Below are positions 118 through 51,100 of a stretch of DNA of 64,000 nt, piece by piece. The number at the start of each line of letters is the position of its first letter. The stretch's first letter is position 1. The position numbers and the translations under genes were made by a program. This DNA comes from Arenicola marina (taxonomy: Eukaryota > Annelida > Polychaeta > Arenicolidae). Where the stretch lies: positions 23,559,639 through 23,623,638 of the forward strand of contig OZ025263.1 of the NCBI GenBank assembly GCA_964019135.1, given 5' to 3'. A model generated the notes under the pieces. It was given only the letters and a program-made list of their open reading frames with translations. It searched no databases and had not been told where the DNA came from.

Positions 118-3100
118 CTGGAGCAAGCATGGCATATAATACACAGCGTGAGATGACATCATGACAAACTATACGCCGCGTGAGATGGCGTCATGGCAGA
201 CTATACGCCGCGTGAGATGGCGTCATGGCAAACTATACGCCGCGTGAGATGGCATCATGGCAGACCCTACGCCGCGTGAGATGGCATCATGGCAGACCAC
301 ACGCCGCGTGAGATGACATCATGACAAACTATACGCCGCGTGAGATGGCGTCATGGCAGACCATACGCCGCGTGAGATGGCATCATGGCAGACCACACGC
401 CGCGTGAGATGGCGTCATGGCAAACTATACGCCGCGTGAGATGGCGTCATGGCAGACCATACGCCGCGCGAGATGACATCATGGCAGACCACACGCCGCG
501 TGAGATGGCATCATGGCAGACAACACACCGCGGAAGAGGGCCACAATAATAACTTTGGACTAGCGATCAGTTCATATGAATATAAATAATATGGGTTCGG
601 AAGTGGCCAAACATTTTATTTCATAACGTCACATTGATCTCCCAATCCTCGCTAATCTTCGCTCCCAACAAGTATATAGCGGCTACTCACCTTCCCAGGC
701 CGGGAAACAGTCGCAGTATGTGACCTGGAAGGTGTCCGTCTTGTTGTAGGCGCTGAGAAGATGCTCGTAGTCGCAGACCCCTTGATTCACGGAACACGGG
801 CACATGCGGACGAGGGTTATCAGCGCCACCGCCCTGGCACCCTGCGAATCCGTGCCAGTGAATCTGCAGAGGAATGGTAGTAACGAAGATGAGGATAGCA
901 GTGACCTATTTCACATACATAGTTTAGCCAGGCTACGGCGCTTAGATGGCAAAAATCGCCCATCATTTTTACATGGCAACTTAAGCCCACTAAGCCCCGT
1001 AGTCGGCTAAACTACGTTCGCGAAATCCACCAGTGGACTTACATGAGCTGAGCTGAGGCGGCTACCTCAACAAATACATAAGTCCGGGGATCGTGCGTTG
1101 GCGCAGAAAGGACCATTGTACTCGCATTACCTCATTGCGTATATGTGGGATTATATTGATTAAATTGATTAAATATAGTTATTATGCTGACACCAGGTTA
1201 AGTTGATATCATTACATAAGGCGATCACGTGACTAATTAAGCAATTAATTTGGGAGCGCGGCCTTGAAGTTGACCTCCTTGACCCCTAATGCTTGCTACC
1301 CGTACCTGAATGTTTCTGTGGGGTTGAGGTTCTGTGGGGTCCACGTGAGTGTGGCCGTCTGGCCTGTGACCATGAATGTGGCTCCTGGAGGGAGGGTGAA
1401 GTCGGCTATCAGAGTCACCGTGTCCCCCTCGGGGTCGTTGGCTGTGATGACCATGGTGGCTTCCACCATGAGCTGCACGTCCAGCACTGTGAGACCCACG
1501 ATAGTAGGCGGATCGTTGTCTGGGAAACGTGGGGCAGAGAGACGCAGACCGTGAGACGAGGGATGATAATCAGAGCATCATAGGTCCCAGGCAGATCGGA
1601 TTTATTCCAGGTGACATGATGAGGATGATGGAAATATCTATACGATCAATTTCTCAATTTGTGTTTTCAGTTACAGCTGATGACATCGGTCTCTTATTTT
1701 GCATTTTTTTGTATTTATTTCTGTATTTTTGTTTTATTTCTCGATGTCGTAAGCAATATTGTTGATAATTTATGGATTCAAATTAATTAAGGTTTAGTTA
1801 ATTAAGTGCTTAACCACATATAAACCATTGAATTCCAAGGATCACCGATGCATAGATTTACTCACTGAGTAAGTCATCCATCTTGGCATTCTCCTCCTGG
1901 ATTTCTTTGGTTGCCTGGGCAACGGCAGGGTCCCCGGTGACGAAGAGGTCGTAGAGGCACTGTAAGTTGCTTGCGCCGCACAGGGTAACGGCGGTGGTTT
2001 CGGCGGCGGCGTCCGGCCAGATGACGTCATCTTGGAAGAGAGGCTGGAAGAGCTCGTTCTGGAAGGTGAAGTAGTCCGTCCCCGGGGGGTAGTAGAACAG
2101 GGAGTCCACCGGTGCAATCCTCCCTGCAATTCGCAAAAGAAACATCGGCTTTTAGTATCCACATGAGATACACCTGCAACAATACAAAATACACGTAGTG
2201 TCTCGTCACATAGATGAAAACTACAGCGTCACCGCTCATGTCAACGAAATCAGTCACGCCAACGCCCTCGTCACGCCGTGCCTGTTCCACGTGACGTCAC
2301 CAAAACTTACATTGCGGGCCGAAGTCGGCGAAGATGTCCCTGTCCGAGGCGGTGAAGGGGTAGACAGTGCCGTCCGGCAGTGCGAGGTCGTCCTCCGGTC
2401 GGTTGTTGAACACTCCCAGGAGGCCATGTGTCCTTCCCAGCAGGCCACTGGTCAACAGCACACGGAAGTACAGCTGCCCAGGCGCCGCTCCCAGGATTAG
2501 AGCCACGCCTCAAATAAGAAATACATTTATTATGAAATACAGTAAATCATATAATTATTAAATTCAGTTCATAAAAATCATATAATTATTAAATTCAGTT
2601 CATAAAAAACATATAATTATTAAATTCAGTTCATCAAAACCATATAATTATTAATTCAGGGCATAAAAATCATAAAATTATTAAATTCAGGTCATAAAAA
2701 TCATTAAATTATTAAATTCAGGTAATAAAAATCATAAAATTATTAAATTCAGGTCATAAAAATCTTCGTTTTTTTAATACAGACAAATCTAAACCAGATG
2801 TCTAAGTTATCGAAATGGCTGGCAATATAAATGATGGCAAAAAGCCCTCACAAGCTCTCTTATTATAGACACAAGAATAGATATGTAACAGTTTTCCTCA
2901 TACTGACCCTAACTGGATTATGTTACATTCTGCAAATCGATTACGTTAATAAATCCCTCGATTGCAATTGGTTGACTGCCTTATTGTAGTTGAATATTTT
3001 GGTCTCAACTTGTTTTCAAGCTCTGAACAAGGGTCAAGCAGGCGTGTCCAGAAGGCGCCACAGCTCAGTAGATTAAAGCATAGACAATTCTTGGCGTACC

Positions 3101-6100
3101 AGCGGGAACCCTGCTTGGGGCATCCAGCAGGGACATTGCTAGGAGCGAAGAGCAGGAAGCCAGCTTGGGGTGTCAGCAGGGACCCAGCTTGGGGTGGTCA
3201 GTAGGGAGCCAGCTTGTGGCGGCCAGCAGGGACCCAGATAGGGGCGGTCAGCAGGTACCCTGATTAAGGCAGCCAGCAGGAAGCCAGCGTGGGGCGGCCA
3301 GCGGCGACCCAGGTAGGGGCGGTCAGCAGGGACCTAGCTTGTGGCGGTCAGCAGGGAGCCAGCTTGTGGGGGCCAGCAGGGACCCAGATAGGGGCGGTCA
3401 GCAGGGACCCTGTTTAAGGCAGCCAGCAGGAAGCCAGCGTGGGGCGGCCAGCGGGGACCCAGGTAGGGGCGGTCAGCAGGGACGAAGCTTGGGGCGGTCA
3501 GCAGGGACCAAGCTTGGGGCGGTCAGCAGAGACCAAGCTTGGGGCGGTCAGCCGGGACCCAGGTTGTGGCGGCCACCAGGGACCCAGCTTGGAGATGCCA
3601 GCAGGGACCCAGCTTGGGGCGGCCAGCAAGGAGCCAGTCTGAGGCGGCCAGCAGGTTGGTTGGTTGATTATTCAGGACGCTATGACCACTTTTGGTCATA
3701 TCGCGTCAATTGGAGAAAGAAGGGACAGTGGAGCCATGTCCCCGGGAGTAACCCCCTACCGGCCAGCCGGGAGCCAGCTTGGGGCTGCCAGCTGGGACCT
3801 GGCTTGGGGCGGCCAGCAGGGACCCAGCTTGGGGCAGCCAGCAGGGAGCCAGCTTGTGGCGGTCAGTGGGGACCCAGCATGGGGCAGCCAGCATGGACCC
3901 AACTAGGAGGGGTCAGCAGGGAGCCAGTTTGAAGGGTTCAGCGGGGACCTTGCTTGGGGCATCCAGCAGGAACCCAGTTGGAGGCGGCCAGCAGGGAGCC
4001 AGCATGGGGCGGCTAGAAGGGGCCCGGCGTGGGACGGCCAGCAGGGAGCCAGCATGGGGCGGCTAGCAGGGACCCAGCATTGGGCGGCCAGCTGGGACCC
4101 AGCATGGGGCGGCCAGCAGAGACCCAGCTTGGGGAGGCCAGCAGGATACAGTCGAGCTCTCACCGGATTGGAAGGCCACATACAAAGTGGCGCCATCTTT
4201 GCGGAGAATCATGCTCTCAGCTACCATCTCGTCGCCGTCCGCAGCGTTGAGGAACCAGTCAGTGAAGGACTGGGTCTCATCCACAATAATCTCCAGCCCT
4301 GGAATTTATGTATTTCAATATATATATAACTAGATAATTTAAGTAATTAAATATGGAGTTAGCGTTATTGGATTGCTCCCGGTCAGCGAGAAAACATCAA
4401 CTATCACAAACCTTCTAGATGAGTAAAATGAGCGAAATTACTCAATCCCGGAATTGATGGTTATAACATGATATAAGTAATAATATTACATTATTTCGCA
4501 TGCAGCGAAAACTGATTAAATTCGTGGTTAAATGTGTAGGCCGACGAGAGGCCATCAGTGCAAGTATGGCTTAGCGAACGGCCATTCCAATGGTAATGAG
4601 TGTTTGACATTGCCGTGTTTGGCGGTGTACCCACCGGAGAAGTCGGCATTGACGGCCACGTATATCCGGGCCGAGGCGCCCTGGGTGTCCCCCACGGTGG
4701 ACGAGTCCTTGGCGGCGATGGCCCGCCACAGCGTGGCCTGGACCGGGGAGCTGTCCGGCGCCGTTGCCTGCGCAGCCCGGCCCTGCAGGTTGAAGGTCTG
4801 GTTCTTGATCAACCAGTACTCGCCCAGCCCGTTAAAGGTGTACTGCAGGCCGTCCACAGTAGTGATGTGCGGGTCGCCGAAACCGTCACCTGCGTAACGG
4901 GAGAAAGTTTAAGTTCATGTAGACATTGTAACTGTGACGTCATCAGGGGAAGTAGGTATTCATGCACTGAACAGGAATGGAGACCTAAGGGCAACTAACT
5001 TGTTTCTATAAGGTTAAACGACGAACTATAAAAGGGAACCAAAGCGCGGGGTGAGTAGGTATCAAGTTCCATACCATAACAATGTCAACGACAAACTGCA
5101 GCAAGGCTAGGGGTGGGCGTAGGGACGGGGAATTGACGAGACGGGTGTTGCGGCTGCCTCAATCTGCCACCGTTTTTTTTTACTATAGTTTTGTTGACCA
5201 TTATAATAATAGTATTATTATTACATTTTTACCTTATAATTTGTGCGTTATTGTAATATTTTTTTAGTATCATAATTTTGCATTATTAAAAATGATTGTG
5301 TTATTAATTTTTTTGGTATTATTATAATTTTCGTATTATTTTGTATTATATTAATGGTTATATTTTTATTTATTAAAAAAAAAGCATCTGGGCACTTACA
5401 GGTTGTAGGGGCCACGTAGTTCGCACAGCTGGCCAGAGGTCGCACTTCATAGAAGAGGTCGCACTGGTCGGACAGTTCGCAACATTGGTCCTTCGGTATG
5501 ATGTCTTCCTGCTGGTGGAGCTCAGGGTAGTAGAGGGGGTTGTACCTCAGCAACGACCCAGAATCGAAGTCCTGGATGGTGCGGAGAGTTCCATAGAGCT
5601 CCGTGGCGCCTGGGGAGGTGTCCGCCTCATAGCAGCATCGCTAAACCACGTTATGACACGTTTTTTAGCATATACATGTATATAACATTCGAACATAATG
5701 TTGAATTGATTGCCTAAAATACTTGCAACATATTTAGCAGTCAATAAATTATTCCCCCGCAAATACTGATTTCTATATACACTTACAATTTATAAATATA
5801 CCTTTATATATATATGACTCAAAACTGGATAATTTTTTTTCTTTAAAAAATGTACATGCTTAGACTGGTATATTTCTTGCACCAGAGGTTGTGCGTGAGC
5901 TTGTAGTGGAAGATTAATACACATAAAGCGTATACCAATGTGTTTCAGGGGCGGATCCAGGGGGGGGGGGGGGTGGCAACCCGGCCCCGCCACCCCCACC
6001 CCCCCTTTAGAGCCGAAATTTATACCATATAAAAACCAAACTCGCCCCCCCCTATACAGCATATCTGTAACCGACCCTGATAAACGCCCCCCCCCCCCCC

Positions 6101-9100
6101 CCCGATATCCAGGTTTTCCGGATCCGCCCCTGGGCTTTATCAAGACGTACCTGCGCCCATTCACCGAGGGCGATGAGGGCGAAGGAGTCCGCACACCCGG
6201 TGAGGATGTCACGCTGATAGCGAGCATCCAGACCGGCCAGCTCCCAGGTACAGGGACAGTGCGGCAGCTGATCCAGGGCGTCATCAATCTCGTCCAGGCG
6301 GCTGTCTTGGTAGAAGACTCGGCACAGGTAGTCGGCTGTGTCCTCCGTCTCCTCGCACGTGACGTCACTGGTCTGGAAGACCCAGATCTTCGCCTCGCCT
6401 ATGGAGGGGTACATTCGTGCGCCGCATGTATTGCAATGGTCATAGGTAAGGGGGTTACTAGGACGGGAAGCTGCGCCGCTATAACGGCGGGGGTGGGGTT
6501 GAGGGTGGCGAGTGTTGGGTGGGACGTGGGGCGTAACTAAGGAAGCGTTGTCGCTATTACTTCAATGGGGACGCCTAATGATGCATGGCATTTCGTCAAG
6601 GGTGCGCTGTTGTCATGGTTACTGATGATACGTGGGCGGGGGATGTATCCCGCCATGGGCATGTTAAATTAGCCGACAAAGCGTTACCATACCGAAATTC
6701 CATCGCGTAATGTAGTGATGTAAGTCACGATGGTCGTCACCATGGGAACGAGCGGTGCATGTCACCCAGGCAACCGTCATTGGCTTAGGTTAGGGTTAAC
6801 TATAATACGGGTTATTAATCCCGTTCGGGAGTACCTGTGTTGCCCAGTGAGTCCGGGTCATCCAGGTTGGTGCCTTCCGTAGACAGGGAGGAGAACATGT
6901 TAAAGGTATCGAGAGCGGACACCATGTCGGCGCTCGGCATCTGATACCCCTGGGCGGCCGGGTACGTGGGATCCAGATCCAATTCGTCGTACAGGAAGAT
7001 CATGTAGCTTCTGGATCTGGACGAGTCCGACATCAGCACCAGTTGGAAGGTCGCCGTCTGAGCAGAAGAATGGAAGAATTTGAACCAGAACGATGATACA
7101 TGCAATGTCATATATATATATATACATAAATATATATATATATATATGTATACGTGACAGGTCCAGGATACCTCCATTATGACTCGTGGTCGCTGGCATC
7201 AAGGCCACCTCAGCAAAAAAAAAAATTATCGCGAATAATTAAGGTGAATTAGAATCTTGAATAGTACGGACAATGAATGGCGAGAAACCCGTAGACAAGA
7301 TCACCTATGGTGACGGTAAATATAAAATAAGGCTGATCAAGCTGGTCAAATTGATCAAAAGCTAATTATTGATTAATGCGACAATGAAACCCACCAACCA
7401 CCCCACAGCATATTAGCGCATATCTAGTGTATTGAATCAAAAGTGGATGTTTTTTTTTACGGCGGCCTTCTCATATTTCGCATAAATACGAATTACACAT
7501 AAGCATCAGTTTGGCATATAAAATCTCAGATACTCACAGATGTGCCTATGTAGTTGACGAAAGGGAAAGGGACCATGTTGGACCACGTGATCACCGCCAC
7601 TTCGTCTGGGCTGAAGCCATCATCTCCCTTTGTTCTCCGGATGTCCATGATGGCGCGTTGCATCACGAGCGCCGTCCCAGCGTCCTTGTATTGGTCGGGG
7701 GTGAAGCGTCGGTAGACCTACACAAACCATTATATAGAACACTTAGTGGTTTAGGCCATGCATCTGTCTCGGGGTCCTTGTATTGGTCGGAGGTGAAGCG
7801 TTGGTAGACCTACACAAACCATTATATAGAACACTTAGTGGTTTAGGCCATGCATCTGTCTCGGCGTCCTTGTATTGGTCGGGGGTGAAGCGTCGGTAGA
7901 CCTACACAAACCATTATATAGAACACTTAGTGGTTTAGGCCATGCATCTGTCTCGGCGTCCTTGTATTGGTCGGGGGTGAAGCGTCGGTAGATCTACATA
8001 AACCCTTATATAGAACACTTAGTGGTTTAGGCCATGCATCTGTCTCGGCGTCCTTGTATTGGCTATGCGTGTAGCGTCGGTAGACCTACACAAACCATTA
8101 TATAGAACACTTAGTGGTTTAGGCCATGCATCTGTCTCGGCGTCCTTGTATTGGCTATGGGTGTAGCGTCGGTAGACCTACACAACCCATCATATAGAAC
8201 ACTTAGTGGTTTAGGTCTAATAAGGTTACCTGGTGGTAAAGAATTCCTTCGGATCCATTCGGGGCAGCCCCGGTCGTGTCGAAGTCCATCCAGAAGGGGG
8301 CGATCATGGCCTTGTCGGTATCGTCCAGAGGGAAAAACTGCGGGTCGTAGATGACGTACTCCTCCAGAAAGTTCACATATCCATTGATGGACGCCTGCGA
8401 GAAGCCGAGGACACAAGTATCGATTATTGACGGTGACTCAAGTACATGCAAGAAATAGCAGAGAACGTGGATGAATTATCCCCAAAATCGGGGAGAAGCA
8501 ACCCACAAATAATATGCTTGCAAGTAAAATTCTCACATGCCTTTTGAGGTCATGATAACAGACGTACTTAAACTAGTGAATATTGTCGAATTATTTAATC
8601 ATATTTTGTTAGGCAATATTAATTTGCTGCGCTGGCAAAATAGGGAAATCCTAGTTTGATGTGTACTCACGAATATATTTGGATAGGTGACACATCCAAA
8701 AAGGAATCCGTACTCCATCCAGATGGGGGCAGAGAAGCCGTCGTCGCTGTTGGTGAGTGACTGGTCTCTCGCACCCAGTCCGTAGGGGTAGAGCCCGGAC
8801 GTACGCACTGTTAAATGACAAATAACATATTACCATGTATTCATCAAGTGATATGTGCATGACATTTTCTCACAAATACAGGTTTCGCCGGTATTTAATG
8901 ACTGTATCATATTTTAAAATTTAATGAAATTTAATTAAACATTTTTAATGACAAATTCATTTCAGACACACCCGTTTTTTTGCCTCATTCATCAGACAAG
9001 GCATTTGTATCCACACATCAAACGTGTATCAAATTTGTAACGTCTCACACTTATAATGATAAACGATTAATTATTGATTTATACACATTAATAAAGCAAC

Positions 9101-12100
9101 GACACATTAAGTTCCCATCCAGTTAGCGGTTTTTTCTCGATTAATATGTTACACTATGTAACGCAACGCAGGGTAACGCAGGGTCGAATCCAGATATGTT
9201 GGATAGGGGGGCTTCGGTTTCGGTTTTCCGATGTTAAAGGGTACAGATTTCGGCCCAAAAAGGTGGACCGGGGCGGGGTCGCCACCCCACCCCCCTGGAT
9301 CCGTCCCTGCGCGACATCGTTATGCATCAATAGTAATGCTTACCCATCTGGCAGTTAGGTCCTGTAAATCCCACAGGACAGCTGCAGTAGTACGTATTGA
9401 CCATGTTGGTGCAATTGGCAAGACCTTGACATGGCTGAGAGGCGCACCAATCTGTTTCAATGAACAAAAAATGTTATTATTCTGTGACGGAGAGATGATC
9501 GAAAACGATTCTCGTAACATATATAATATTCGTCAGTGTCGCTGAAATAATGATTTACGCCGGCAAAAAAACATTGATATTCTAATGAACAAACAACAAT
9601 CACTGTTTGACATTATAATATTGAGCCAATGACGTCATAGTGTGCGTGAATAGCGCATGTCGGGTCTCACCTATCGGGCCAGGAGCTGTACCATTGGCTG
9701 AAATTGACAAGAAAGTGATTATTTTAGATGACCTTTTAAGACGGAAATTTAAGCAAGGATATTACAGGTTTTGCTGTGATAACAATAACGGCAAGTGGTG
9801 GCATAATAGGCCAGGTCATTGCCACCACCACATTCTCTCGCTTAAACCCGCCCTGTTTGATTATGAAAAATGCATTAATGAAGAGGTCAAATCTGGCACA
9901 TGTTTTTCATCATCCTTATTTCTCAGCATATTTAGGCCTCGGCATGCAGTTAATTATAACGTGAGCACCGTTCTATATCAGTGTCGCTAATCCTGTAATT
10001 CTCACCGCAATACGGGTTGAAGCATGTTTCGCACTGGGTGCTGTTGTTGAATATGTCCTCGCAGTATTGGCCCAATTCGCACTCGGACTCGTCGACACAG
10101 AGGCGGCTGACGGAGCTCAGCGCACCGCTACCGTCCCGTACCACCTCATGCTTGCACCGCGACTGAAAACCCGCAGCTATATATCAAACTATGAGCCCGT
10201 ACCCCTTCATGCTCGCACCGCGACTGAGCTATTGATCAAACAACTGTCCCTTACCATATCATGCTTGCACCGCGACTGAAAACTCCAAGCTATATATCAA
10301 ACGATGAGCCCGTACCAACTTATGCTTGCACCGCGACTGAGCTATTTATCAAACGACTGTCCCGTACCACATCATGCTTGTACCGCGACTGAAAACCCTG
10401 ATCTATATATATCAAACGACTGTCCCGTACCACATCATGCTTGTACCGCGACTGAAAACCCTGATCTATATATATCAAACGACTGTCCCGTCCCACATCA
10501 TGCTTGCACCGCGAAAGAAAACCCCAAGCTATTTATCAAACGACGAGCCCGTACCAACTTGTACTTGCACGGCGACTGAGCTATTGATCAAACAACTGTC
10601 CCTTACCATATCATGCTTGCACCGCGACTGAAAACTCCAAGCTATATATCAAACGATGAGCCCGTACCAACGTATGCTTGCACCGCGACTGAGCTATTTA
10701 TCAAACGACTGTCCCGTACCACATCATGCTTGCACCGCGACTGAAAACCCCCAGCTATATATCAAACGAAGACTCTTTACCACCGCATAGTATATAAAAT
10801 ATAGTAATAAAACGATGGTGATTTAAGTCAATGATAATAAGATATTATTAACATTATATAAGCGATAGTAAGTTAACAAATATAATGATAATACGAATTA
10901 ATGATACGGCCATAATGAGTTAACAGGGGATAAAACTACCAAGACCATATCTCTTACAATACTGAAAAAAACGAAAACAGTTGCAAGGAAAAAAAATTCA
11001 AAGATAATTATTACAACAAATAACACGTCACTATTGCTAACAAATTGCGGATAATTACAAGACATTGTATTATGAAATGCGGAATGGGAACATATTGAAG
11101 TTCTTTCCACAGAAGGTTGACTCACGTTAGGGTTGTTGCACGGCACATCGACAGCAACTTCGTCGCATTTACTCCAAGACTCAGACTTGATGCAGACCGG
11201 GCAGAAGCCATACTGTGTATCCGCTTGACAAACAGAGTTTGGGTCTACAAGAAACCATAACTATATATGATAAATCAACGCTCAGGATTGTATTCAACAT
11301 TACCTTCAATGTAGTTTGATATGATTATGTTTTTGCAGCTTGGGAGTATCGTTTTACTTAAATTGACTATAGAGTATAGATATAAGTTATTTATTGGTTT
11401 CGGAGATGTAAACATGTTCAGATATATAAATACTTTAAATAAATGCATACAAACCTGCAAGAAATTTAAACATCGATGTCAAGATATGTGGCTCCGTTAC
11501 AAAATGGCCATACATTGCTAAGCATTATTTAATGTTTATTTGTGACATTGCAGTTAGATCATCTTGCCACGAGTACGTCCAAACATACTCACGTTGTGAT
11601 ACATAAGTCGCAGAAAATGCATGTGTTATTCCGAACGGGTATTGTCCTGTTACAAGTACACAGTGAAGTGTATCACCAGCACACACATGCACAAAACACT
11701 ACCCCGACAAAAGGGAGTTTACGACAATTGTGACGATTAAGAAATACATTTATATTAGCAAAGGAAGACTGACCTGCGCAGACAGGGCTAGAGACGCACT
11801 GCTCGCAGCGAGTGCCGTCCGCGTCGGCACCATAGTCCCATGGGACACACACGTTGTCTTCGAAGGTGGAACTGCTGTTGAAGACACAGTCCACGGTCTC
11901 GGCGCAATACCTCTTGAAGTAGATAGGGGTTCCTCGCTTGTCCAGGAGTTGTTCTTCCTGACACACGGCCTATAAATGGCGGTGCACGAACACGAGAAAT
12001 GTAATTCCCACATTGATCGCTGTCATAGTCACATAGGCCAAGCAATTATTTCTAGGACCAATGCAGCTGTTTTTGATGCTGCAATTATTACTGCCATCAT

Positions 12101-15100
12101 AAACAAGGCAACCATACATTGCTTACAGTTTGGCTACTACATGTGGTGTCATAATGTGGACGCCAATGCTAGGATTGGTACGTTCGCTATCGATGCCATT
12201 ACAAATATATTTACTGTTGTTATTACAAAATCAAGTCTTCTAGTTTTATGATTAGTTCATCACTTCACTGCCGTTCAATATCACTGATGCTACAACGTCT
12301 ATGGCTATATTACTTATCACAGTATCACTTATAACAGTTCATTCTCCATGTGCATTGTTCTTATTCCGACAGTTGCTAAGATATTTTGGGCCTAGTTCTG
12401 AGTATTCCACTTTGAGGCGACAGTGCTTGTACCAAGAATTCTGGGAATTAAATAATGCAGTCGTCATAGATAACGTCATCGAATGACGTCATAGACAACG
12501 TCACCAAATGACGTCATCGAATGACGCATCTGATGACGACATAGATAACGTCATCGAATGACGACATGGACAACGTCATCGAATGATGTCATCTAATGAT
12601 GTCATCGAATGTCATCGAATGACGTCATTTGATGAAGACATAGATTACGTCATCGAATGAAACATCTGATGACGACATAGATAACGTCATCGAATGACAT
12701 CGAATGACGTCATCGAATGACATCGAATGACTTCATCGAATGGCGTCATCGAATGGCGTCAACGAATGAGTCATCTGGTGACGACATAGATAACGTCATC
12801 GGATGACGTCACATTTTGCATGCGGCACTCACGTTGACGCCGGCACAGGACTGGACCACAGCATGGAGGTCGCACATAGTAGGCGACGTGCTGTCGCACA
12901 CGTAGCAACTTGGAACCGCAGGGCTGGTGCAGTCACCAAAGTCAGGTTCTAGCAAAGTCATACGGAGCAAAGGACATGAACAAAGCGGTAAGGCATACAT
13001 ACGTTCCATGACATAGTATCTGCGCGTTCAAATTGTGCCCATACAGATATGCAACGAGAGATTGTGTTTCAAGGCGGTGTAATTAATATGCATCGTGAAA
13101 ACGGTAGGGCCTTATTATTTAGTACCATCGATTCTTGTGCTAAGCCAAATGTGTCGCCCCAAGGGCTTAACTGGGCCCCCCTGGGGGGGGGGGGGGTGGG
13201 GGCAGGGGGGCACTATTATACAAACCTGGTGGGGAGGATCCGCGGGTGCCTTGGTGCCGGGGGTTGCCGCGGAAAATACCCCTTCCAAGCGGATTTTGGC
13301 GGCAAAAACCCGACCGAGTAGAATTTGGCGGTGAAAAAGAGGGGCTTTACCGAGGAACCCTCCAAACCCAGCAATTTATTAAGTGTTCCCCCCCCTCCTC
13401 CTCCGCCCCCCCCCCCCCGGGGAACCGGGTCAATCAACTCCTGGATCAATGACGTTGCAGGACGTGACCGCTCCAGTGACAGGTCTAAAAATATACTTAG
13501 TCATGGCATATACATGTATATACATATACATTATTAACCGGAACAAGATATTTCCCCCTCTTCTCTAAGAACAAAGATATTGTGAAGAAGAGACTGACCT
13601 GTACAGAAAGGGCTGTCGATGCACTTCTCGCAGCGAGTACCGTTCGCGTCATCACCATAGTCCCAAGGGATGCAGACCTTGTTGTCTTGGGTGGAAGTGC
13701 CGTTGAAGACACAGTTCGGGACCTCGGCGCAATATCTCGTGTAGTAGATGTAGGTTCCTCGCTTGTCCAGGAGTTCCTCTTCGAGACATACCACCTATAA
13801 ATAGACACATACGTCAGGCTAGATGGTGATCGCGAGGCAAGAGAAAATAAATTCATATTTAAAGTTGCATAACGAGCTCTTTCCCGCCAAAACTAAGCCC
13901 AGGTGACATATATATCACAGTTTGCAAAACACTCGATTGTTTCATTCTATAAATTCAGAAATAAACATGCATCGCCGCTTCGGATGTGATGTGGCAAATG
14001 TGTCTATCCCGGGACACCGCGGAACTCTGTCGCGGCACTGCTACTTATAACAAAGCATCGCGAAGCACACAAACTGTCGACGTTGATCACTAAGTTGAAA
14101 ACCTGTGGTAAATTGATATCACGTGCAAGGCTAAGAGACTCCACTCGGCAGTCTGGTATGCGTTGGAATATAGACAAAAGAAATGTTGGATAATTCTAGG
14201 GCTGATGCTGTATTTTGACTTCTTTACTTGAGGCGGTATGCATCTTTAAGAGTTGCCCCAACTGGCGTTCGTGCTCACGCTGCCGGTATGGTTACTGTTA
14301 TTCAATACCATTTACGTGATTACAGCCCAGACGGACAGCGTTGGCATTGATAAGGTTACTCTTCACACGCTCGTTGATATTGTTACTAGACCTACAACTA
14401 CAGTGTGTACGTGGGTATCAAATTGCACTGATTTCCTGGCGATGCACACTATAGAACTTATCCCTAAAAGTATGAAAAGTATCCATCAATAGAACAGTTT
14501 TGTGCAATTGATGAGGGGCGAAAACCAGAAGACATTATACGGACTATGCAAATTTATCGTCGCAGCCTTGAGAAAGAGAAGGCAAGGCGTGTTATCACCA
14601 CGTTAGCGCAATTTATTGGTCGCTGTGTGTTTTTTTTCTTTTTTGTATTAATTAATTGCACCAGGTCTGGAGGCCAGCCAAAGTACGCAATAAACTGTAC
14701 TGGCAACTTCAGTGTATATACAATTATAATGTCGCTGTTATTGTTAATAGTGGAATACATACTTATTGATCCTATCATAACAATTTCGGCTACGGTGACT
14801 ATAGTTTTCCGCCAGTCCTCGCCAAATTAAGCAAGTAAGTAAAGCAGTACAAGTAAAGGGAGCTTTTGGGTTTACGGTTGGTGACACATCATTGGCCGCC
14901 CCAGGGGCCCGTATTCATAATCGCCACTTAGGCTACGCCACTAGACTTAAGGTTAAGAGGAAGATTTGTCGAGCGATTAAGGCTTCAAAATACATGGGTC
15001 TGAATTAAGAAAGTGCTAAAATTATATTAAAAATAATTTATTAATCATGAGCACCACCACAATGAGCTGGTGAGGCTAAGACGAAAATGCACTTTTCGTG

Positions 15101-18100
15101 CTTAACTTGCGAGGAGATTATGATGAATATTGCGACTCGGGCGACTACTTGGTGACTATTATTCATTTTGAACCCGATATTCGCTCGACAAATCTTCCAC
15201 TTGGAGTTAAGTCTAGTGGCGTAGCCTCAGTGGCGATCATGAATGCGACCTCTGGGGTTTATGCTCGGGTTACTTACGTCTCCGCCAGCACAGGATTGGA
15301 CGACGGCGCTAGCTTCGCAAGCGGCAGGCGATGTGCTGTTGCACACGTTGCAGCCCGGTAAGGATTCGCCGGGGCAGTCACCACCAGGTTCTGACAAATA
15401 CAGACAGGACATTCAACAGCCTGACCTCACATTTATTCGACCCGAGCAGATATAAACGCGGTTCTACCCGATATCCATACCTTGATGAACACTCCAAGTA
15501 TCGATTTCGCGATGAACGCGGCCAAGTATCGATTCCCGGATGAACGCGGCCAAGTATCGATACCTGGATGAACGCGACCAAGTAGCGGAGCCTGGATGAA
15601 CGCGGCCAAGTATCGATATCTGGATGAACGCGGCCAAGTATCGATACCTGGATGAACGCGACCAAGTAGCGGAGCCTGGATGAACGCGGCCAAGTATCGA
15701 TATCTGGATGAACGCGGCCAAGTATCGATATCTGGATGAACGCGGCCAAGTATCGATACCTGGATGAACGCGACCAAGTAGCGGAACCTGGATGAACGCG
15801 GCCAAGTATCGATATCTGGATGAACACGGCCAAGTATCGATACCTGGATGAACGCGGCCCAGTATCGATACATGGATGAACGCTGTCAAGTATTGATACC
15901 TGGATGAACGCGGCCAAGTACTGATACATGGATGAACGCTGTCAAGTATTGATACATGGCTGAACGCGGCCAAGTATCGATACCTTGATGAACGCGGCCA
16001 AGTATTGATACATGGATGAACGCGGCCAAGTATTGATACATGGATGAACGCTGTCAAGTATCGATACATGAATGAACGCTGTCAAGTATCGATACATGGA
16101 TGAACGCGGCCAAGTATCGATACATTGATGAACGCGGCCAAGTATCGATACATGGGTGAACGCGGCCAAGTATCGATATGAACGCGGCGTTGATGAATAC
16201 GCGTCGCCGTCGGAACCTTATTGGATATGGCGGGGTTCTAGGTATTGTACAGCCATAACAACACAACCGAAGCTTAAATATTATTTAGTTGTAATGATTA
16301 CTATATTATAATTATAAATATCACCATTGCTATCATTAAAGTCATTATTAATATCCATATTATGGTTATCATGGGTTTGCACTTTCAAAGTTTAATGCTA
16401 CTGACCTGCACAATCTTGCGTAGGGGTGCAGGTTTCACACAATTCATCGAAGTCATCGCCAATATATTTGCACATTTCTGTGTATATGTCTGAGCCGTTG
16501 TTTGAGCAAGCACTCTTTGAGACGCACTCTCTGACCACCTCGATGACGCTTCCCCTCTTGTTCCTCAGATCCCTCTCAATGCAGAATGACTGGCAACGGC
16601 GAAAATAAACCAGTAACATTAGTTTCAAAACCAAATGAATCATTTCCCGCTGTAATATATTTTACCAATAAATATGTGCGTTTATACATGAATATGTATG
16701 TCTAGTTATATGGTATGTCGCAGAGAAAGGGGGATTTGTAGGAGTTTGGCAATCTCTGTGTCCGTTAATGCCATTCTCTCGAAAAGAGACAGCTTTGGTC
16801 CATTTATGTGAAATAATGCATACTTAGACATGCATATTTAATATCTATGTTGTGTGTTTCATCGTCATATACGAGGTATTAGTTTTCTTAACTTCGTATT
16901 TTGAGGGAAATATATAAACACATACACAGTCAGCTCTCTCTATTACTGTACCTCACTGGTATTACCACACGACCGTAATACACTGTTGGCATTGCACTCA
17001 TCCCAGCCACGGTTGGACGTACATACGGGACACGCCAGCTCCTGGCCAGACGGACATACCGGTCTTATTACCCCTGTAATGACGTCATAAATTAAGCATT
17101 AAACCAGTAGGTAGACAGGCATAGTGCCTAAGACATGTTGATCAAACGGTGAACAGTAATTTTTATCAAGGTTTTGTCGCTTTCGTCGCTTGTCAATTCT
17201 TGGACAATGAAACACATCCAACACTTTTACTTCAATTTAATTCCGCTATATTGCTGTAGAATCGATATAATATAAAATAGCATAATAATACCCAGGCTAC
17301 TAATCCGACCCGCTATACTGCTGTAGAATCGATATAATATAATATGGTATAATAATACGCATGCTACTAATCCGACCCGCTATAGTGTTGTACAATCGAT
17401 ATAATACAATATAGTATTATAATACCCAGGCTACTTACGGTCACATGTACAGTTGTAGCAAATTTGCCCTTGCAAGTCGGTGCCATCAACACAGGAGCCG
17501 GCCGTGCCTCCCGCCAGGTTGAGACAGTCATTGCTGGGCACGCACTGGCGAGACACGTTGAACACCACTCCTCGCTTGTTGATCCATTCCACGTGCTGAC
17601 AGACGTACTGCGGGCAACAACAAGCGGCATAAAGATGTGACATCTGGGGCAGGGCATTAAAGTATTAAGATGTGACACCTGGGGCAGGGCATTTAAGTAT
17701 ATAGATGTGACATCTGGGGCAGGGCATTTAAGTATATAGATGTGACATCTGGGGCAGGGCATTTAAGTATATAGATGTGACATCTGGAGCAGGGCATTTA
17801 AGCAGAAAGATGTGACATCTGGAGTAGGGCATTTAGGAAAGTGCTGGTAACATCCGGAGAGTTGTACTTACTCCATCCTCGCATTGAACTTCAACTCCAT
17901 TAGTGGCGCACTGGAGCCACGTGTCCTCGCCGCTGCATACGACGCACGGACACGCTGTTGACACGCCGAAAAAGACAGCAGTTCTAACACGTTATGTGTG
18001 TGTATATATACATGTTATCAGTTTATGATAGAGGTACGTGCGATACTGAACTATAAATATCACATTGAAACCTGTTATACGTTTTGCGAACGTTGATATT

Positions 18101-42100: not shown

Positions 42101-45100
42101 GGTGGACTCGGTGGTCCCTGTGGTTGTCTCGGTGGATAAAGTGGTTCCTGATGTTGTCACACCCGTGGTCTCTCTCACCGTTGACTCGGTGGTGGGCGCT
42201 ATGGTTGTTTCGGTGGACAAAGTGGTCCCTGATGTGGCCACACCTGTGGTCTCCGTCACCGTGGACTCGGTGATCCCTGTGGTTGTCTCGGTGGACAAAG
42301 TGGTCCCTGATGTCGTCACCCCAGTGGTCTCTGTCACCGTGGACTCGGTGGTCCCTGTGGTTGTCTCGGTGGATAAAGTGGTTCCTGATGTTGTCACACC
42401 TGTGGTCTCTGTCAACGCTGACTCGGTGGTCCCTGTGGTTGTCTCGGTAGATAATGTGGTCCCTGATGTGGTCACACCTGTGGTCTCCGTCACCGTGGAC
42501 TCGGTGGTCCCTGTGGTTGTCTCAGGGGATAAAGTGGTCCCTGATGTGGTCAGATCTGTGGTCTCCGTCACGGTGGACTCGGTGATCCCTGTGGTTGTCT
42601 CGGTGGATAAAGTGGTTCCTGATGTTGTCACACCTGTGGTCTCCCTCACCGTTGACTCGGTGGTGGGCGCTATGGTTGTTTCGGTGGACAAAGTGGTCCC
42701 TGATGTGGCCACACCTGTGGTCTCTGTCACCGTGGACTCGGTGATCCCTGTGGTTGTCTCGGTGGACAAAGTGGTCCCTGATGTGGTCACACCTGTGGTC
42801 TTCGTCACCGTGGACTCGGTGGTCCCTGTGGTTGCCTCAGGGGATAAAGTGGTCCCTGATGTGGTCACATCTGTGGTCTCCATCACCGTGGACTCGGTGG
42901 TCCCTGTGGTTGTCTCGGAGGATAAAGCGGTCCCTGATGTGGTCACATCTGTGGTCTCCGTCACCTTGGACTCGGTGGTCCCTGTGGTTGTCTCGGAGGA
43001 TAAAGTGGTCCCTGATGTGGTCACATCTGTGGTCTCTGTCACAGTGGACTCGGTGGTCCCTGTGGTTGTCTCCGTGGATAAAGTGGTCCCTGATGTGGAG
43101 GCGGGTAAGCTTGTGGTTTCACTCAATTCTAACCCCGCTGCAAAGTCATTAGTTTACATTTAGTTTACCCATAATGATAAATTAGAAGCCTATATTAGTC
43201 TTGCCTTATGTATATATTCCGCGCACAATGAAACTGAAATACACATTCTGTAGCAATAGGTTGCAATATCAGCCCTATCTGGTCACTTTAAACTTGATAT
43301 ATGTAAACGTAATTACGTCTTCAATACTGATGTGCGAAACTTTAAACCTATTTTTCATCAAAGCAATATACAATGAAATATATTCACTGCAGATTTGAAA
43401 AATGCAAGACAGACATAAAGACTTTTCGAAATTTAGACGCGTTTCATCAGATGGACAGTGCGGGTAGTGATTTTATTAGCTTCAGTAGCCAATAAGAGAG
43501 ACGCAGGGAACGAGACGACCGTCAGACACTTACTAGGTGACGTGGTTGCCGTGGTTACAGCTGGGGTGAGGGTTGATGTCGGCCCAGTAACCGTGGTAAA
43601 AATATCCGTGCTCAAGGTCGACGTGGGTGCAATCGATGGTGACCTTACGTCAGTTGGAAGAGAGGTAGACTCAGATAAAGTGGTCCCTGATGTGGTCACA
43701 CCCGTGGTCTCCGTCACCGTGGACTCGGTGGTCCCTGTGGTTGTCTCGGTAGATAATGTGGTCCCTGATGTGGTCACACCTGTGGTCTCCGTCACCGTGG
43801 ACTCGGTGATCCCTGTGGTTGTCTCGGTGGATAAAGTGGTCCCTGATGTGGTCACACCTGTGGTCTCCGTCACCGTGGACTCGGTGGTCCCTGTGGTTGT
43901 CTCAGGGGATAAAGTGGTCCCTGATGTGGTCAGATCTGTGGTCTCCGTCACGGTGGACTCGGTGGTTCCTGTGGTTGTCTCGGTGGATAAAGTGGTTCCT
44001 GATGTGGTCACATCTGTGGTCCCCGTCACCGTGGACTCGGTGGTCCCTGTGGTTGTCTCGGTGGGTAAAGTGGTCCCTGATGTAGTCACATCTGTGGTCT
44101 CAGTCACGGTGGACTCGGTGGTCCCTGTGGTTGTCTCGGTGGATAAAGTGGTTCCTGATGTTGTCACACCCGTGGTCTCCGTCACCGTGGACTCGGTGGT
44201 CCCTGTGGTTGTCTCTGGGGATAAAGTGGTCCCTGATGTGGTCAGATCTGTGGTCTCCGTCACGGTGGACTCGGTGGTTCCTGTGGTTGTCTCGGTGGAT
44301 AACGTGGTTCCTGATGTGGTCACATCTGTGGTCTCTGTCACCGTGGACTCGGTGGTCCCTGTGGTTGTCTCGGAGGATAAAGTGGTCCCTGATGTGGTCA
44401 CATCTGTGGTCTCCGTCACCGTGGACTCGGCGGTCCCTGTGGTTGTCTCGGAGGATAAAGTGGTCCCTGATGTGGTCACACCTGTGGTATCCGTCAAAGT
44501 AGACTCGGTGGTCCCCGTGGTTGTCTCGGTGGATAATGTGGTCCCTGATGTGGTCACACCTGTGGTATCCGTCACAGTGGACTCGGCGGTCCCCGTGGTT
44601 GTCTCCCTGGATAAAGTTGTCCCTGATGTGGACAGATCTGTGGTTTCCGTCACGGTGGACTCGGTAGTCCCTGCGGTTGTCTCGGTGGATAAAGTGGTCC
44701 CTGATGTCGTCACACCTGTGATCTCCGTCACCGTGGACTCGGTGGTCCCTGTGGTTGTCTCGGTGGATAAAGTGGTCCCTGATGTCGTCACCCCAGTGGT
44801 CTCTGTCACCGTGGACTCGGTGGTCCCTGTGGTTGTCTCGGTGGATGAAGTGGTTCCTGATGTTGTCACACCTGTGGTCTCTGTCAACGCTGACTCGGTG
44901 GTCCCTGTGGTTGTCTCGGTAGATAATGTGGTCCCTGATGTGGTCACACCTGTGGTCTCCGTCACCGTGGACTCGGTGGTCCCTGTGGTTGTCTCAGGGG
45001 ATAAAGTGGTCCCTGATGTGGTCAGATCTGTGGTCTCCGTCACGGTGGACTCGGTGGTCCCTGTGGTTGTCTCGGTGGATAAAGTGGTTCCTGATGTTGT

Positions 45101-48100
45101 CACACCCGTGGTCTCTCTCACCGTTGACTCGGTGGTGGGCGCTATGGTTGTTTAGGTGGACAAAGTGGTCCCTGATGTGGCCACACCTGTGGTCTCCGTC
45201 ACCGTGGACTCGGTGATCACTGTGGTTGTCTCGGTGGACAAAGTGGTTCCTGATGTTGTCACACCTGTGGTCTCCGTCACCGTGGACTCGGTGATCACTG
45301 TGGTTGTCTCGGTGGATAAAGTGGTTCCTGATGTTGTCACACCTGTGGTCTCTGTCAACGCTGACTCGGTGGTCCCTGTGGTTGTCTCGGTAGATAATGT
45401 GGTCCCTGATGTGGTCACACCTGTGGTCTCCGTCACCGTGGACTCGGTGGTCCCTGTGGTTGTCTCAGGGGATAAAGTGGTCCCTGATGTGGTCAGATCT
45501 GTGGTCTCCGTCACGGTGGACTCGGTGATCCCTGTGGTTGTCTCGGTGGATAAAGTGGTTCCTGATGTTGTCACACCTGTGGTCTCCCTCACCGTTGACT
45601 CGGTGGTGGGCGCTATGGTTGTTTCGGTGGACAAAGTGGTCCCTGATGTGGCCACACCTGTGGTCTCTGTCACCGTGGACTCGGTGATCCCTGTGGTTGT
45701 CTCGGTGGACAAAGTGGTCCCTGATGTGGTCACACCTGTGGTCTTCGTCACCGTGGACTCGGTGGTCCCTGTGGTTGCCTCAGGGGATAAAGTGGTCCCT
45801 GATGTGGTCACATCTGTGGTCTCCATCACCGTGGACTCGGTGGTCCCTGTGGTTGTCTCGGAGGATAAAGCGGTCCCTGATGTGGTCACATCTGTGGTCT
45901 CCGTCACCTTGGACTCGGTGGTCCCTGTGGTTGTCTCGGAGGATAAAGTGGTCCCTGATGTGGTCACATCTGTGGTCTCTGTCACAGTGGACTCGGTGGT
46001 CCCTGTGGTTGTCTCCGTGGATAAAGTGGTCCCTGATGTGGAGGCGGGTAAGCTTGTGGTTTCACTCAATTCTAACCCCGCTGCAAAGTCATTAGTTTAC
46101 ATTTAGTTTACCCATAATGATAAATTAGAAGCCTATATTAGTCTTGCCTTATGTATATATTCCGCGCACAATGAAACTGAAATACACATTCTGTAGCAAT
46201 AGGTTGCAATATCAGCCCTATCTGGTCACTTTAAACTTGATATATGTAAACGTAATTACGTCTTCAATACTGATGTGCGAAACTTTAAACCTATTTTTCA
46301 TCAAAGCAATATACAATGAAATATATTCACTGCAGATTTGAAAAATGCAAGACAGACATAAAGACTTTTCGAAATTTAGACGCGTTTCATCAGATGGACA
46401 GTGCGGGTAGTGATTTTATTAGCTTCAGTAGCCAATAAGAGAGACGCAGGGAACGAGACGACCGTCAGACACTTACTAGGTGACGTGGTTGCCGTGGTTA
46501 CAGCTGGGGTGAGGGTTGATGTCGGCCCAGTAACCGTGGTAAAAATATCCGTGCTCAAGGTCGACGTGGGTGCAATCGATGGTGACCTTACGTCAGTTGG
46601 AAGAGAGGTAGACTCAGATAAAGTGGTCCCTGATGTGGTCACACCCGTGGTCTCCGTCACCGTGGACTCGGTGGTCCCTGTGGTTGTCTCGGTAGATAAT
46701 GTGGTCCCTGATGTGGTCACACCTGTGGTCTCCGTCACCGTGGACTCGGTGATCCCTGTGGTTGTCTCGGTGGATAAAGTGGTCCCTGATGTGGTCACAC
46801 CTGTGGTCTCCGTCACCGTGGACTCGGTGGTCCCTGTGGTTGTCTCAGGGGATAAAGTGGTCCCTGAAGTGGTCAGATCTGTGGTCTCCGTCACGGTGGA
46901 CTCGGTGGTTCCTGTGGTTGTCTCGGTGGATAAAGTGGTTCCTGATGTGGTCACATCTGTGGTCCCCGTCACCGTGGACTCGGTGGTCCCTGTGGTTGTC
47001 TCGGTGGGTAAAGTGGTCCCTGATGTAGTCACATCTGTGGTCTCAGTCACGGTGGACTCGGTGGTCCCTGTGGTTGTCTCGGTGGATAAAGTGGTTCCTG
47101 ATGTTGTCACACCCGTGGTCTCCGTCACCGTGGACTCGGTGGTCCCTGTGGTTGTCTCTGGGGATAAAGTGGTCCCTGATGTGGTCAGATCTGTGGTCTC
47201 CGTCACGGTGGACTCGGTGGTTCCTGTGGTTGTCTCGGTGGATAACGTGGTTCCTGATGTGGTCACATCTGTGGTCTCTGTCACCGTGGACTCGGTGGTC
47301 CCTGTGGTTGTCTCGGAGGATAAAGTGGTCCCTGATGTGGTCACATCTGTGGTCTCCGTCACCGTGGACTCGGCGGTCCCTGTGGTTGTCTCGGAGGATA
47401 AAGTGGTCCCTGATGTGGTCACACCTGTGGTATCCGTCAAAGTAGACTCGGTGGTCCCCGTGGTTGTCTCGGTGGATAATGTGGTCCCTGATGTGGTCAC
47501 ACCTGTGGTATCCGTCACAGTGGACTCGGCGGTCCCCGTGGTTGTCTCCCTGGATAAAGTTGTCCCTGATGTGGACAGATCTGTGGTTTCCGTCACGGTG
47601 GACTCGGTAGTCCCTGCGGTTGTCTCGGTGGATAAAGTGGTCCCTGATGTCGTCACACCTGTGATCTCCGTCACCGTGGACTCGGTGGTCCCTGTGGTTG
47701 TCTCGGTGGATAAAGTGGTCCCTGATGTCGTCACCCCAGTGGTCTCTGTCACCGTGGACTCGGTGGTCCCTGTGGTTGTCTCGGTGGATGAAGTGGTTCC
47801 TGATGTTGTCACACCTGTGGTCTCTGTCAACGCTGACTCGGTGGTCCCTGTGGTTGTCTCGGTAGATAATGTGGTCCCTGATGTGGTCACACCTGTGGTC
47901 TCCGTCACCGTGGACTCGGTGGTCCCTGTGGTTGTCTCAGGGGATAAAGTGGTCCCTGATGTGGTCAGATCTGTGGTCTCCGTCACGGTGGACTCGGTGG
48001 TCCCTGTGGTTGTCTCGGTGGATAAAGTGGTTCCTGATGTTGTCACACCCGTGGTCTCTCTCACCGTTGACTCGGTGGTGGGCGCTATGGTTGTTTAGGT

Positions 48101-51100
48101 GGACAAAGTGGTCCCTGATGTGGCCACACCTGTGGTCTCCGTCACCGTGGACTCGGTGATCACTGTGGTTGTCTCGGTGGACAAAGTGGTCCCTGATGTC
48201 GTCACCCCAGTGGTCTCTGTCACCGTGGACTCGGTGGTCCCTGTGGTTGTCTCGGTGGATAAAGTGGTTCCTGATGTTGTCACACCTGTGGTCTCTGTCA
48301 ACGCTGACTCGGTGGTCCCTGTGGTTGTCTCGGTAGATAATGTGGTCCCTGATGTGGTCACACCTGTAGTCTCCGTCACCGTGGACTCGGTGGTCCCTGT
48401 GGTTGTCTCAGGGGATAAAGTGGTCCCTGATGTGGTCAGATCTGTGGTCTCCGTCACGGTGGACTCGGTGATCCCTGTGGTTGTCTCGGTGGATAAAGTG
48501 GTTCCTGATGTTGTCACACCTGTGGTCTCCCTCACCGTTGACTCGGTGGTGGGCGCTATGGTTGTTTCGGTGGACAAAGTGGTCCCTGATGTGGCCACAC
48601 CTGTGGTCTCTGTCACCGTGGACTCGGTGATCCCTGTGGTTGTCTCGGTGGACAAAGTGGTCCCTGATGTGGTCACACCTGTGGTCTTCGTCACCGTGGA
48701 CTCGGTGGTCCCTGTGGTTGCCTCAGGGGATAAAGTGGTCCCTGATGTGGTCACATCTGTGGTCTCCATCACCGTGGACTCGGTGGTCCCTGTGGTTGTC
48801 TCGGAGGATAAAGCGGTCCCTGATGTGGTCACATCTGTGGTCTCCGTCACCTTGGACTCGGTGGTCCCTGTGGTTGTCTCGGAGGATAAAGTGGTCCCTG
48901 ATGTGGTCACATCTGTGGTCTCTGTCACAGTGGACTCGGTAGTCCCTGTGGTTGTCTCGGTTGATAAAGTGGTCCCTGATGTGGAGGCGGGTGAGCTTGT
49001 GGTTTCACTCAATTCTAACCCCGCTGCAAAGTCATTAGTTTACATTTAGTTTACCCATAATGATAAATTAGAAGCCTATATTAGTCTTGCCTTATGTATA
49101 TATTCCGCGCACAATGAAACTGAAATACACATTCTGTAGCAATAGGTTGCAATATCAGCCCTATCTGGTCACTTTAAACTTGATATATGTAAACGTAATT
49201 ACGTCTGCAATACTGATGTGCGAAACTTTAAACCTATTTTTCATCAAAGCAATATACAATGAAATATATTCACTGCAGATTTGAAAAATGCAAGACAGAC
49301 ATAAAGACTTTTCGAAATGTAGACGCGTTTCATCAGATGGACAGTGCGGGGAGTGATTTTAGTAGCTTCAGTAGCCAATAAGAGAGACGCAGGGAACGAG
49401 ACGACCGTCAGACACTTACTAGGTGACGTGGTTGCCGTGGTTACAGCTGGGGTGAGGGTTGATGTCGGCCCAGTAACCGTGGTAAAAATATCCGTGCTCA
49501 AGGTCGACGTGGGTGCAATCGATGGTGACGTTACGTCAGTTGGAAGAGAGGTAGACTCAGATAAAGTGGTCCCTGATGTGGTCACACCCGTGGTCTCCGT
49601 CACCGTGGACTCGGTGGTCCCTGTGGTTGTCTCGGTAGATAATGTGGTCCCTGATGTGGTCAGATCTGTGGTCTCCGTCACGGTGGACTCGGTGGTTCCT
49701 GTGGTTGTCTCGGTGGATAAAGTGGTCCCTGATGTGGTCACACCTGTGGTCTCCGTCACCGTGGACTCGGTGGTGGGCGCTATGGTTGTTTCGGTGGACA
49801 AAGTGGTCCCTGATGTTGTCACACCTGTGGTCTCCCTCACCGTTGACTCGGTGGTGGGCGCTATGGTTGTTTCGGTGGACAAAGTGGTCCCTGATGTGGT
49901 CACATCTGTGGTCTCTGTCACCGTGGACTCGGTGCTCCCTGTTGTTGTCTCGGTGGATAAAGTGATCCCTGATGTGGTCACACCTATGGTCTCCGACACC
50001 GTGGACTCTGTGGTCCCTGTGGTTGTCTCGGAGGATAAAGTGGTCCCTGATGTGGTCACATCTGTGGTCTTCGTCACCGCTAACTCGGTGGTCCCTGTGG
50101 TTGTCTCTGTAGATAATGTGGTCCCTGATGTGGTCACACCTGTGGTCTCCGTCACCGTGGACTCGGTGGTCCCTGTGGTTGTCTCCGTGGATAAAGTTGT
50201 CCCTGATGTAGACAGATCTGTGGTTTCCGTCACCGTGGACTCGGTGGTCCCTGTGGTTGTCTCGGTGGATAAAGTGGTCCCTGATGTGGTCACCCTAGTG
50301 GTCTCTGTCGCCGTGGACTCGGTGGTCCCTGTGGTTGTCTCGGTGGATAAAGTGGTTCCTGATGTTGTCACACCTGTGGTCTCCGTCAACGCTGACTCGG
50401 TGATCCCTGTGGTTGTCTCGGTGGATAAAGTGGTTCCTGATGTTGTCACACCTGTGGTCTCCGTCACCGTGGACTCGGTGGTCCCTGTGGTTGTCACGGT
50501 AGATAATGTGGTCCCTGTGGTTGTCACGGTAGATAATGTGGTCCCTGATGTGGTCACACCTGTGGTCTCCGTCACCGTGGACTCGGTGGTCCCTGTGGTT
50601 GTCTCGGTGGATAAAGTGGTCCCTGATGTGGTCACATCTGTGGTCTCCGTCACCGTGGACTCGGTGGTCCCTGTGGTTGTCTCGGAGGATAAAGTGGTCC
50701 CTGATGTGGTCACATCTGTGGTCTCCGTCACCTTGGACTCGGTGGTCCCTGTGGTTGTCTCGGTGGATAAAGTGGTCCCTGATGTGGTCACATCTGTGGT
50801 CTCCGTCACCGTGGACTCGGTGTTCCCTGTGGTTGTCTCGGTGGATAAAGTGGTCCCTGATGTGGTCACATCTGTGGTCTCCGTCACCGTGGACTCGGTG
50901 TTCCCTGTGGTTGTCTCGGTGGATAAAGTGGTCCCTGATGTGGTCACACCTGTGGTGATAGATGCGGTTTTGTGGTTTCACATTAACTTGCGCTAGCTGT
51001 ACCAATGCTGCGCTCTGTTAACTCTAGTGTAATAAGTACAGTACATCATGTTAATGCGTCTAGTATTAGTTGTCCCATTAATAAATAATCCTCTAATTTG

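Follow-up and report, generated by a model that had tools for sequence, protein, structure and literature searches.

The host gene and its authentic acceptor

The window, by which we mean the whole 64,000-nucleotide stretch of Arenicola marina DNA analysed here, carries a gene on the minus strand for which 23 exons were chained from 17954 to 691. All of these exons lie between AG and GT, their phases are coherent, and the model has no stop in 1329 codons. Pfam listed ten families for the C-terminal 845 residues; the five above cut-off were NIDO, VWD, C8-3_MUC4, Big_9 and EGF, and AMOP fell below it (E 0.043). The combination NIDO-AMOP-VWD is the mark of MUC4-type mucins. Upstream, Thr/Ser-rich open reading frames (retained at more than 33% Thr+Ser) reach up to 1671 residues with 62% Thr+Ser. 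Taken together, the Pfam families and these reading frames point to a predicted MUC4-like mucin. Within the Thr-rich part, reading frames of equal length recur between 43436 and 49039, shifted by 2943 bp (43436-45151 and 46379-48094; 45155-46096 and 48098-49039), reflecting either a tandem duplication of ~2.9 kb or an assembly repeat in the mucin part. ARAGORN reported no genes and Rfam no matches at gathering score.

Five two-exon cysteine modules, possibly an uncharacterised three-finger-like domain, occupy positions 10006-17954 of the mucin-like gene. Their alignment has 16 invariant columns, and Cys occupies 11 of these. The modules matched no Pfam family up to E 0.1, and there was no significant profile match to a Ly6/uPAR-type domain. 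A search of the PDB with the module profile gave three hits, all to Ly6/PLAUR domain-containing proteins 6/6B (E 0.20-0.23). This weak resemblance may serve as a lead. In all five modules the second exon begins two codons ahead of an invariant Cys (codon 3). By comparison with the four paralogous modules, the position of this Cys therefore places the module 5 acceptor at 10162|10163 without recourse to the repeat described below. The 23-exon model gives the same junction. The exon and the intron in front of it are:

10006..10162, minus strand: the authentic 157-nt exon (phase 0 in, phase 1 out), which forms the second half of cysteine module 5, from the exon model and paralogy
10163..11125, minus strand: intron that holds the array, 963 bp; the preceding exon ends TAAC|gtgagt at 11126

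Anatomy and homogenisation of the array at module 5

The acceptor of module 5 is covered by a tandem array, found by TRF with a period of 113 bp, 5.5 copies, 82% matches and a score of 880. Its parts are:

10133..10769, minus strand: boundary-spanning minisatellite with 11 copies in acceptor register, spaced by 52/61/63 bp, and a higher-order unit of ~113 bp
10129..10189, minus strand: copy 11, the authentic boundary, consisting of 27 intron bases and the first 34 exon bases
10768..10791, minus strand: possible degenerate edge copy, weak
10572..10671, minus strand: 100-bp block repeated exactly 352 bp away, pointing to recent exchange or duplication
10220..10319, minus strand: partner of the 100-bp block, an exact match at offset 352
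10347..10491, minus strand: 63-bp unit repeated exactly, with an 82-bp exact self-match at offset 63

Ten copies lie upstream of the authentic one. Each unit comprises ~27 intron bases followed by the first 34 exon bases and thus covers the boundary. The intron end reads GTTTGATATATAGC...TTTTCAG or is a variant shorter by 9 bp that ends in AGCTCAG, and the exon-like part follows directly. In this part the consensus agrees with the authentic exon at 31 of 34 positions; beyond it, homology ends. Along the minus strand, read 5' to 3', the copies are spaced by 52, 61, 52, 61, 63, 63, 52, 61, 52 and 61 bp, the 63-bp copies being 2 bp longer. CAG is kept in 10 of the 11 copies and is replaced by CTT in copy 5, so that the splice dinucleotide AG is retained in many but not all units (nine of the ten decoys). 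The authentic copy, placed at 10162 by reading frame and paralogy, sits at the edge of the array and adjoins the intact exon. At the opposite edge a partial, degenerate copy may extend the array to ~10791. In shuffles, 13 of 24 matches in register gave P 0.003 and 11 of 20 gave P 0.009, values that are not blind because the register was chosen from a prior alignment; a 34-base comparison (7 matches, P 0.74) paired strings of unequal length, out of register.

An earlier note on this DNA had described an acceptor-spanning minisatellite at cysteine module 5, and the TRF array with its 11 copies bears this out. It had placed the exon at 10006-10162, the same coordinates as in the phase-coherent model. 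Its count of about eleven copies holding CAG and 20-35 exon bases agrees with the 11 copies and 34 exon bases found here, except that one copy lacks CAG. The 61/52-bp alternation that it proposed is present and is interrupted by two 63-bp units in the middle of the array.

The array has been homogenised recently. Self-identity is 0.90 at offset 352 and 0.89 at offset 465, compared to 0.64 at offset 113, and a further exact match of 60 bp occurs at offset 352. The exact blocks and the high identity at offsets 352 and 465 therefore show that copies within the array were exchanged or duplicated recently. By which of these routes the copies became alike can only be suggested, and the instability of the array, as judged from this single case, is likewise probable rather than observed.

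Decoy acceptors and the exon-proximal copy

The upstream copies present the spliceosome with a row of potential acceptors:

10224..10742, minus strand: ten decoy acceptors, with the first exon-like base (plus coordinate) at 10740, 10688, 10627, 10575, 10514 (AG lost), 10451, 10388, 10336, 10275 and 10223
10607..10627, minus strand: copy 3, potential microexon, a 21-nt open in-frame stretch with acceptor 8.42 and donor-like ATG|gtaaggg 5.65
10255..10275, minus strand: copy 9, an identical 21-nt stretch within the duplication at offset 352 and hence dependent on copy 3

Acceptors were scored with a matrix built from the positions of the 22 other modelled acceptors of the gene, that is, from few sites of one gene and with branch points outside the matrix. 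On this scale the nine AG-bearing decoys reach 4.8-8.7, the AG-less one -3.7 and the authentic acceptor 7.9, so that three of the ten decoys (copies 1, 3 and 9) outscore the authentic site. The 95th percentile of 436 other intronic AGs, a background set which includes the AGs of a second array described below (nido2), is 6.8. Splicing to any of the decoys would add 61-578 nt, and in 10/10 cases a stop follows after 22-64 codons. Because no other choice leaves an open reading frame, we infer that the exon-proximal copy is the acceptor in use.

These features make the locus a well-preserved array of the type called "mirage", in a mucin-like gene. It is a clear new example of a phenomenon that is already known. 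Very probably, an acceptor segment was duplicated by chance and expanded, the exon-proximal copy being functional and the other copies neutral intronic decoys. On this account a segment of ~61 bp over the 3' splice site (~27 intron and 34 exon bases) would have been duplicated in an ancestor, and a length difference of 9 bp would have given rise to the 52/61 dimer. The array might then have grown by unequal exchange, conversion or slippage in steps of 63, 113 and 352 bp. Selection on the protein would keep only the copy adjoining the full exon functional, while the remaining copies would drift neutrally as intronic decoys and the spliceosome would use the exon-proximal one. The presence of AG in nine of ten decoys does not by itself show neutrality.

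The earlier note mentioned boundary-spanning minisatellites in amphioxus, and two papers bear this out (PMC3087553, PMC3902484). Tandem repeats over exon-intron boundaries are described there for amphioxus globin genes and were named mirages after work on Adh3 (PMC3087553); PGBD5 and TnC are further mirage genes (PMC3902484). Publications on repeats of this type go back to 2002 or earlier (the Adh3 paper, as cited in PMC3087553). According to the same text, regular splicing is maintained, splice signals occur in many but not all units, mirage copy number is not the same in the haplotypes of BflGb6 (6 vs 3), and mirages have been proposed as a path to intron gain. The anatomy seen here is that of the globin and Adh3 cases and is similar to what the available sections report for PGBD5 and TnC. 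Amphioxus units, which measure 10-72 bp in Adh3 and 150-160 bp in the globins, are likewise arranged in tandem over the boundary. As in the excerpts on BflGb6, BflGb9 and Adh3, the splice signal is present in many but not all copies, the cluster is homogenised and there is an authentic copy, transcribed in amphioxus and here deduced to be used from the frame. Unlike the amphioxus mirages, the present array lies in a NIDO-VWD mucin-like gene and has 11 copies spaced by 52/61/63 bp with a higher order of 113 bp.

Minisatellites at boundaries have also been surveyed, as internal tandem repeats, in human segmentally duplicated genes (PMC2812944). As in the accessible part of that survey, minisatellite expansion at an exon-intron boundary alters gene structure. 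There, 66% of intron modifications also have transcripts that retain the repeat, whereas here 10/10 decoys bring a stop. The Rogers model, in which introns are gained when AG/GT proto-splice sites are duplicated in tandem (cited in PMC3087553), also has a counterpart at this locus, as the duplicated segment holds an AG together with a GT resembling a donor; unlike in the model, a new intron or exon is not in evidence. Among the matches listed from the open-licence literature (titles and beginnings of abstracts), there was no genome-wide amphioxus survey of such arrays and no report of arrays in this gene. A search of the open-licence literature returned no paper combining at least three of the terms tandem acceptor, minisatellite, exon definition and decoy.

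The array provides a natural test of 3' splice-site choice, with nine AG decoys, three of them scoring above the real site and each fatal to a reading frame that the modelled part of the gene otherwise keeps open. RNA and long reads from this locus could reveal how the exon-proximal copy wins and whether introns or microexons arise from arrays of this kind.

Array placement and competing readings

The earlier note had pointed to an array near 7.7 kb of the same architecture and independent sequence. This second acceptor-spanning array was recovered with a different unit:

7680..8215, minus strand: sister acceptor-spanning array at exon 7538-7717, 92 bp x 5.8 by TRF

It contains six copies including the authentic one, and 5/5 decoys run into a stop. 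Exons 8230-8394 and 7538-7717 are separated by an intron of 512 bp that consists almost entirely of the 92-bp repeat, leaving no more than 15 bp free at the donor. This intron (region 7680-8229) is an example of an intron enlarged by mirage-type expansion.

The earlier note went further and suggested that minisatellites are specifically seeded at 3' splice sites by a repeated, acceptor-linked mechanism. We consider this unlikely. Acceptors are indeed spanned by two arrays with different units and donors by none, when spanning is defined as at least 10 bp on either side of the junction. Counted over the 23 modelled exons, with the Thr/Ser-rich part (18-64 kb) lying outside the model, this amounts to 2/23 versus 0/23 (Fisher P 0.49). 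The placement tests used the eight loci that the modelled range (691 to 17954) holds once overlapping TRF rows have been merged and the AT dinucleotide repeat at 7110-7152 has been set aside; TRF rows at 128-532, short of 691, and those past 17954 fall outside the exon model and did not enter. When arrays were slid within their own introns with an overhang of up to 40 bp, a mean of 1.1 acceptors was spanned, and P was 0.30 for at least two and 0.13 for at least two with no donor. With intron-like placement, in which deep invasion of exons was barred, the mean was 0.53, and the corresponding values were P 0.10 and P 0.06. Unconstrained placement of the eight arrays even leads one to expect more spanning (mean 4.7 acceptors, P 0.99 for at least two). 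Copies of the repeats were found at 82 of 300 intron-interior positions, above the rate at acceptors in the same test, and at exon-interior positions (n = 200) there were none with at least two copies and 19 with at least one. The alignment threshold for junction copies recovers eight of the ten decoys of the 10133-10769 array as spanning. Mirages at 5' boundaries are also described in the available parts of PMC3087553 and PMC3902484. These local data, from one gene, lend no support to the seeding proposed for 3' splice sites.

The ends of arrays do crowd junctions at some cut-offs. Nine of 16 ends lie within 40 bp (P 0.0002-0.005, depending on the null), and the six non-spanning arrays alone give P 0.005 at the same distance, a cut-off that was picked after the data had been seen; nine cut-offs were computed in all. 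Crowding depends on this choice, as it is not significant at 10-20 bp and, with a 40-bp overhang, yields P 0.24 at 25 bp and P 0.16 at 30 bp. It also involves donors as well as acceptors. Unconstrained placement spans as many donors as acceptors, with P 0.0006 for none, so donors are hit less often by the real arrays than by randomly placed ones. We read this avoidance as selection against exon invasion. What is seen locally fits a dense population of minisatellites that selection restrains from invading exons.

Alternatively, the decoy row itself could be functional. Copy number would then tune decoy splicing and transcript destruction and act as a heritable expression dial of the mucin-like gene. 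The decoy features described above are compatible with such a role, since nine of ten decoys have AG, three of ten outscore the authentic acceptor and all ten give premature stops. A young, homogenised array would retain AG without selection, and the accessible text on amphioxus describes mirages that leave regular splicing undisturbed in Adh3 and globin genes (PMC3087553) and yield no aberrant mRNAs in Adh and TnC (PMC3902484). We regard a dial of this kind as quite improbable.

Even less credence is given to the reading of copies 3 and 9 as in-frame microexons of 21 nt, with exon or intron birth under way, a reading akin to the route to intron gain that has been proposed for mirages. The acceptor (8.42) and the donor (5.65) enclose 21 open nucleotides with phase 0 preserved, and the donor exceeds the leave-one-out scores of 5 of the 23 modelled donors. 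Against this, among 689 intronic GTs the donor's score falls between the 95th percentile (4.2) and the 99th (6.6), and sites of comparable score (GTs at 5.78 and 5.88) are present inside copy 10 and the authentic exon. Copies 3 and 9 belong to one duplicated block and count as a single event, and an exon of 21 nt is very short. It is similarly far-fetched to join both ideas in a variable splicing dial, by which germline and somatic shifts in copy number might redirect transcripts to stop-bearing decoys or to the 21-nt microexons (copies 3 and 9) and so tune the mucin-like protein per individual or cell.

That the array was inflated or mis-joined during assembly is just as hard to credit: tandem arrays assemble poorly, and one mirage was apparently misassembled in a genome draft according to the part of PMC3087553 available, but the ten units between successive acceptors include just one identical pair (copies 3 and 9) and their spacing is uneven.

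Several further intronic repeats stop 4-37 bp short of a donor or acceptor without crossing it (17243-17435, 17629-17835, 12462-12811, 3099-4145 and 2544-2764). A short MITE-like element with inverted ends (CAGGGGCGGATCC...GGATCCGCCCCTG) is present at 5946-6132, its end lying 18 bp inside the intron that adjoins exon 6151-6398. Ends similar to those of this element are located near 9294 and 36755.
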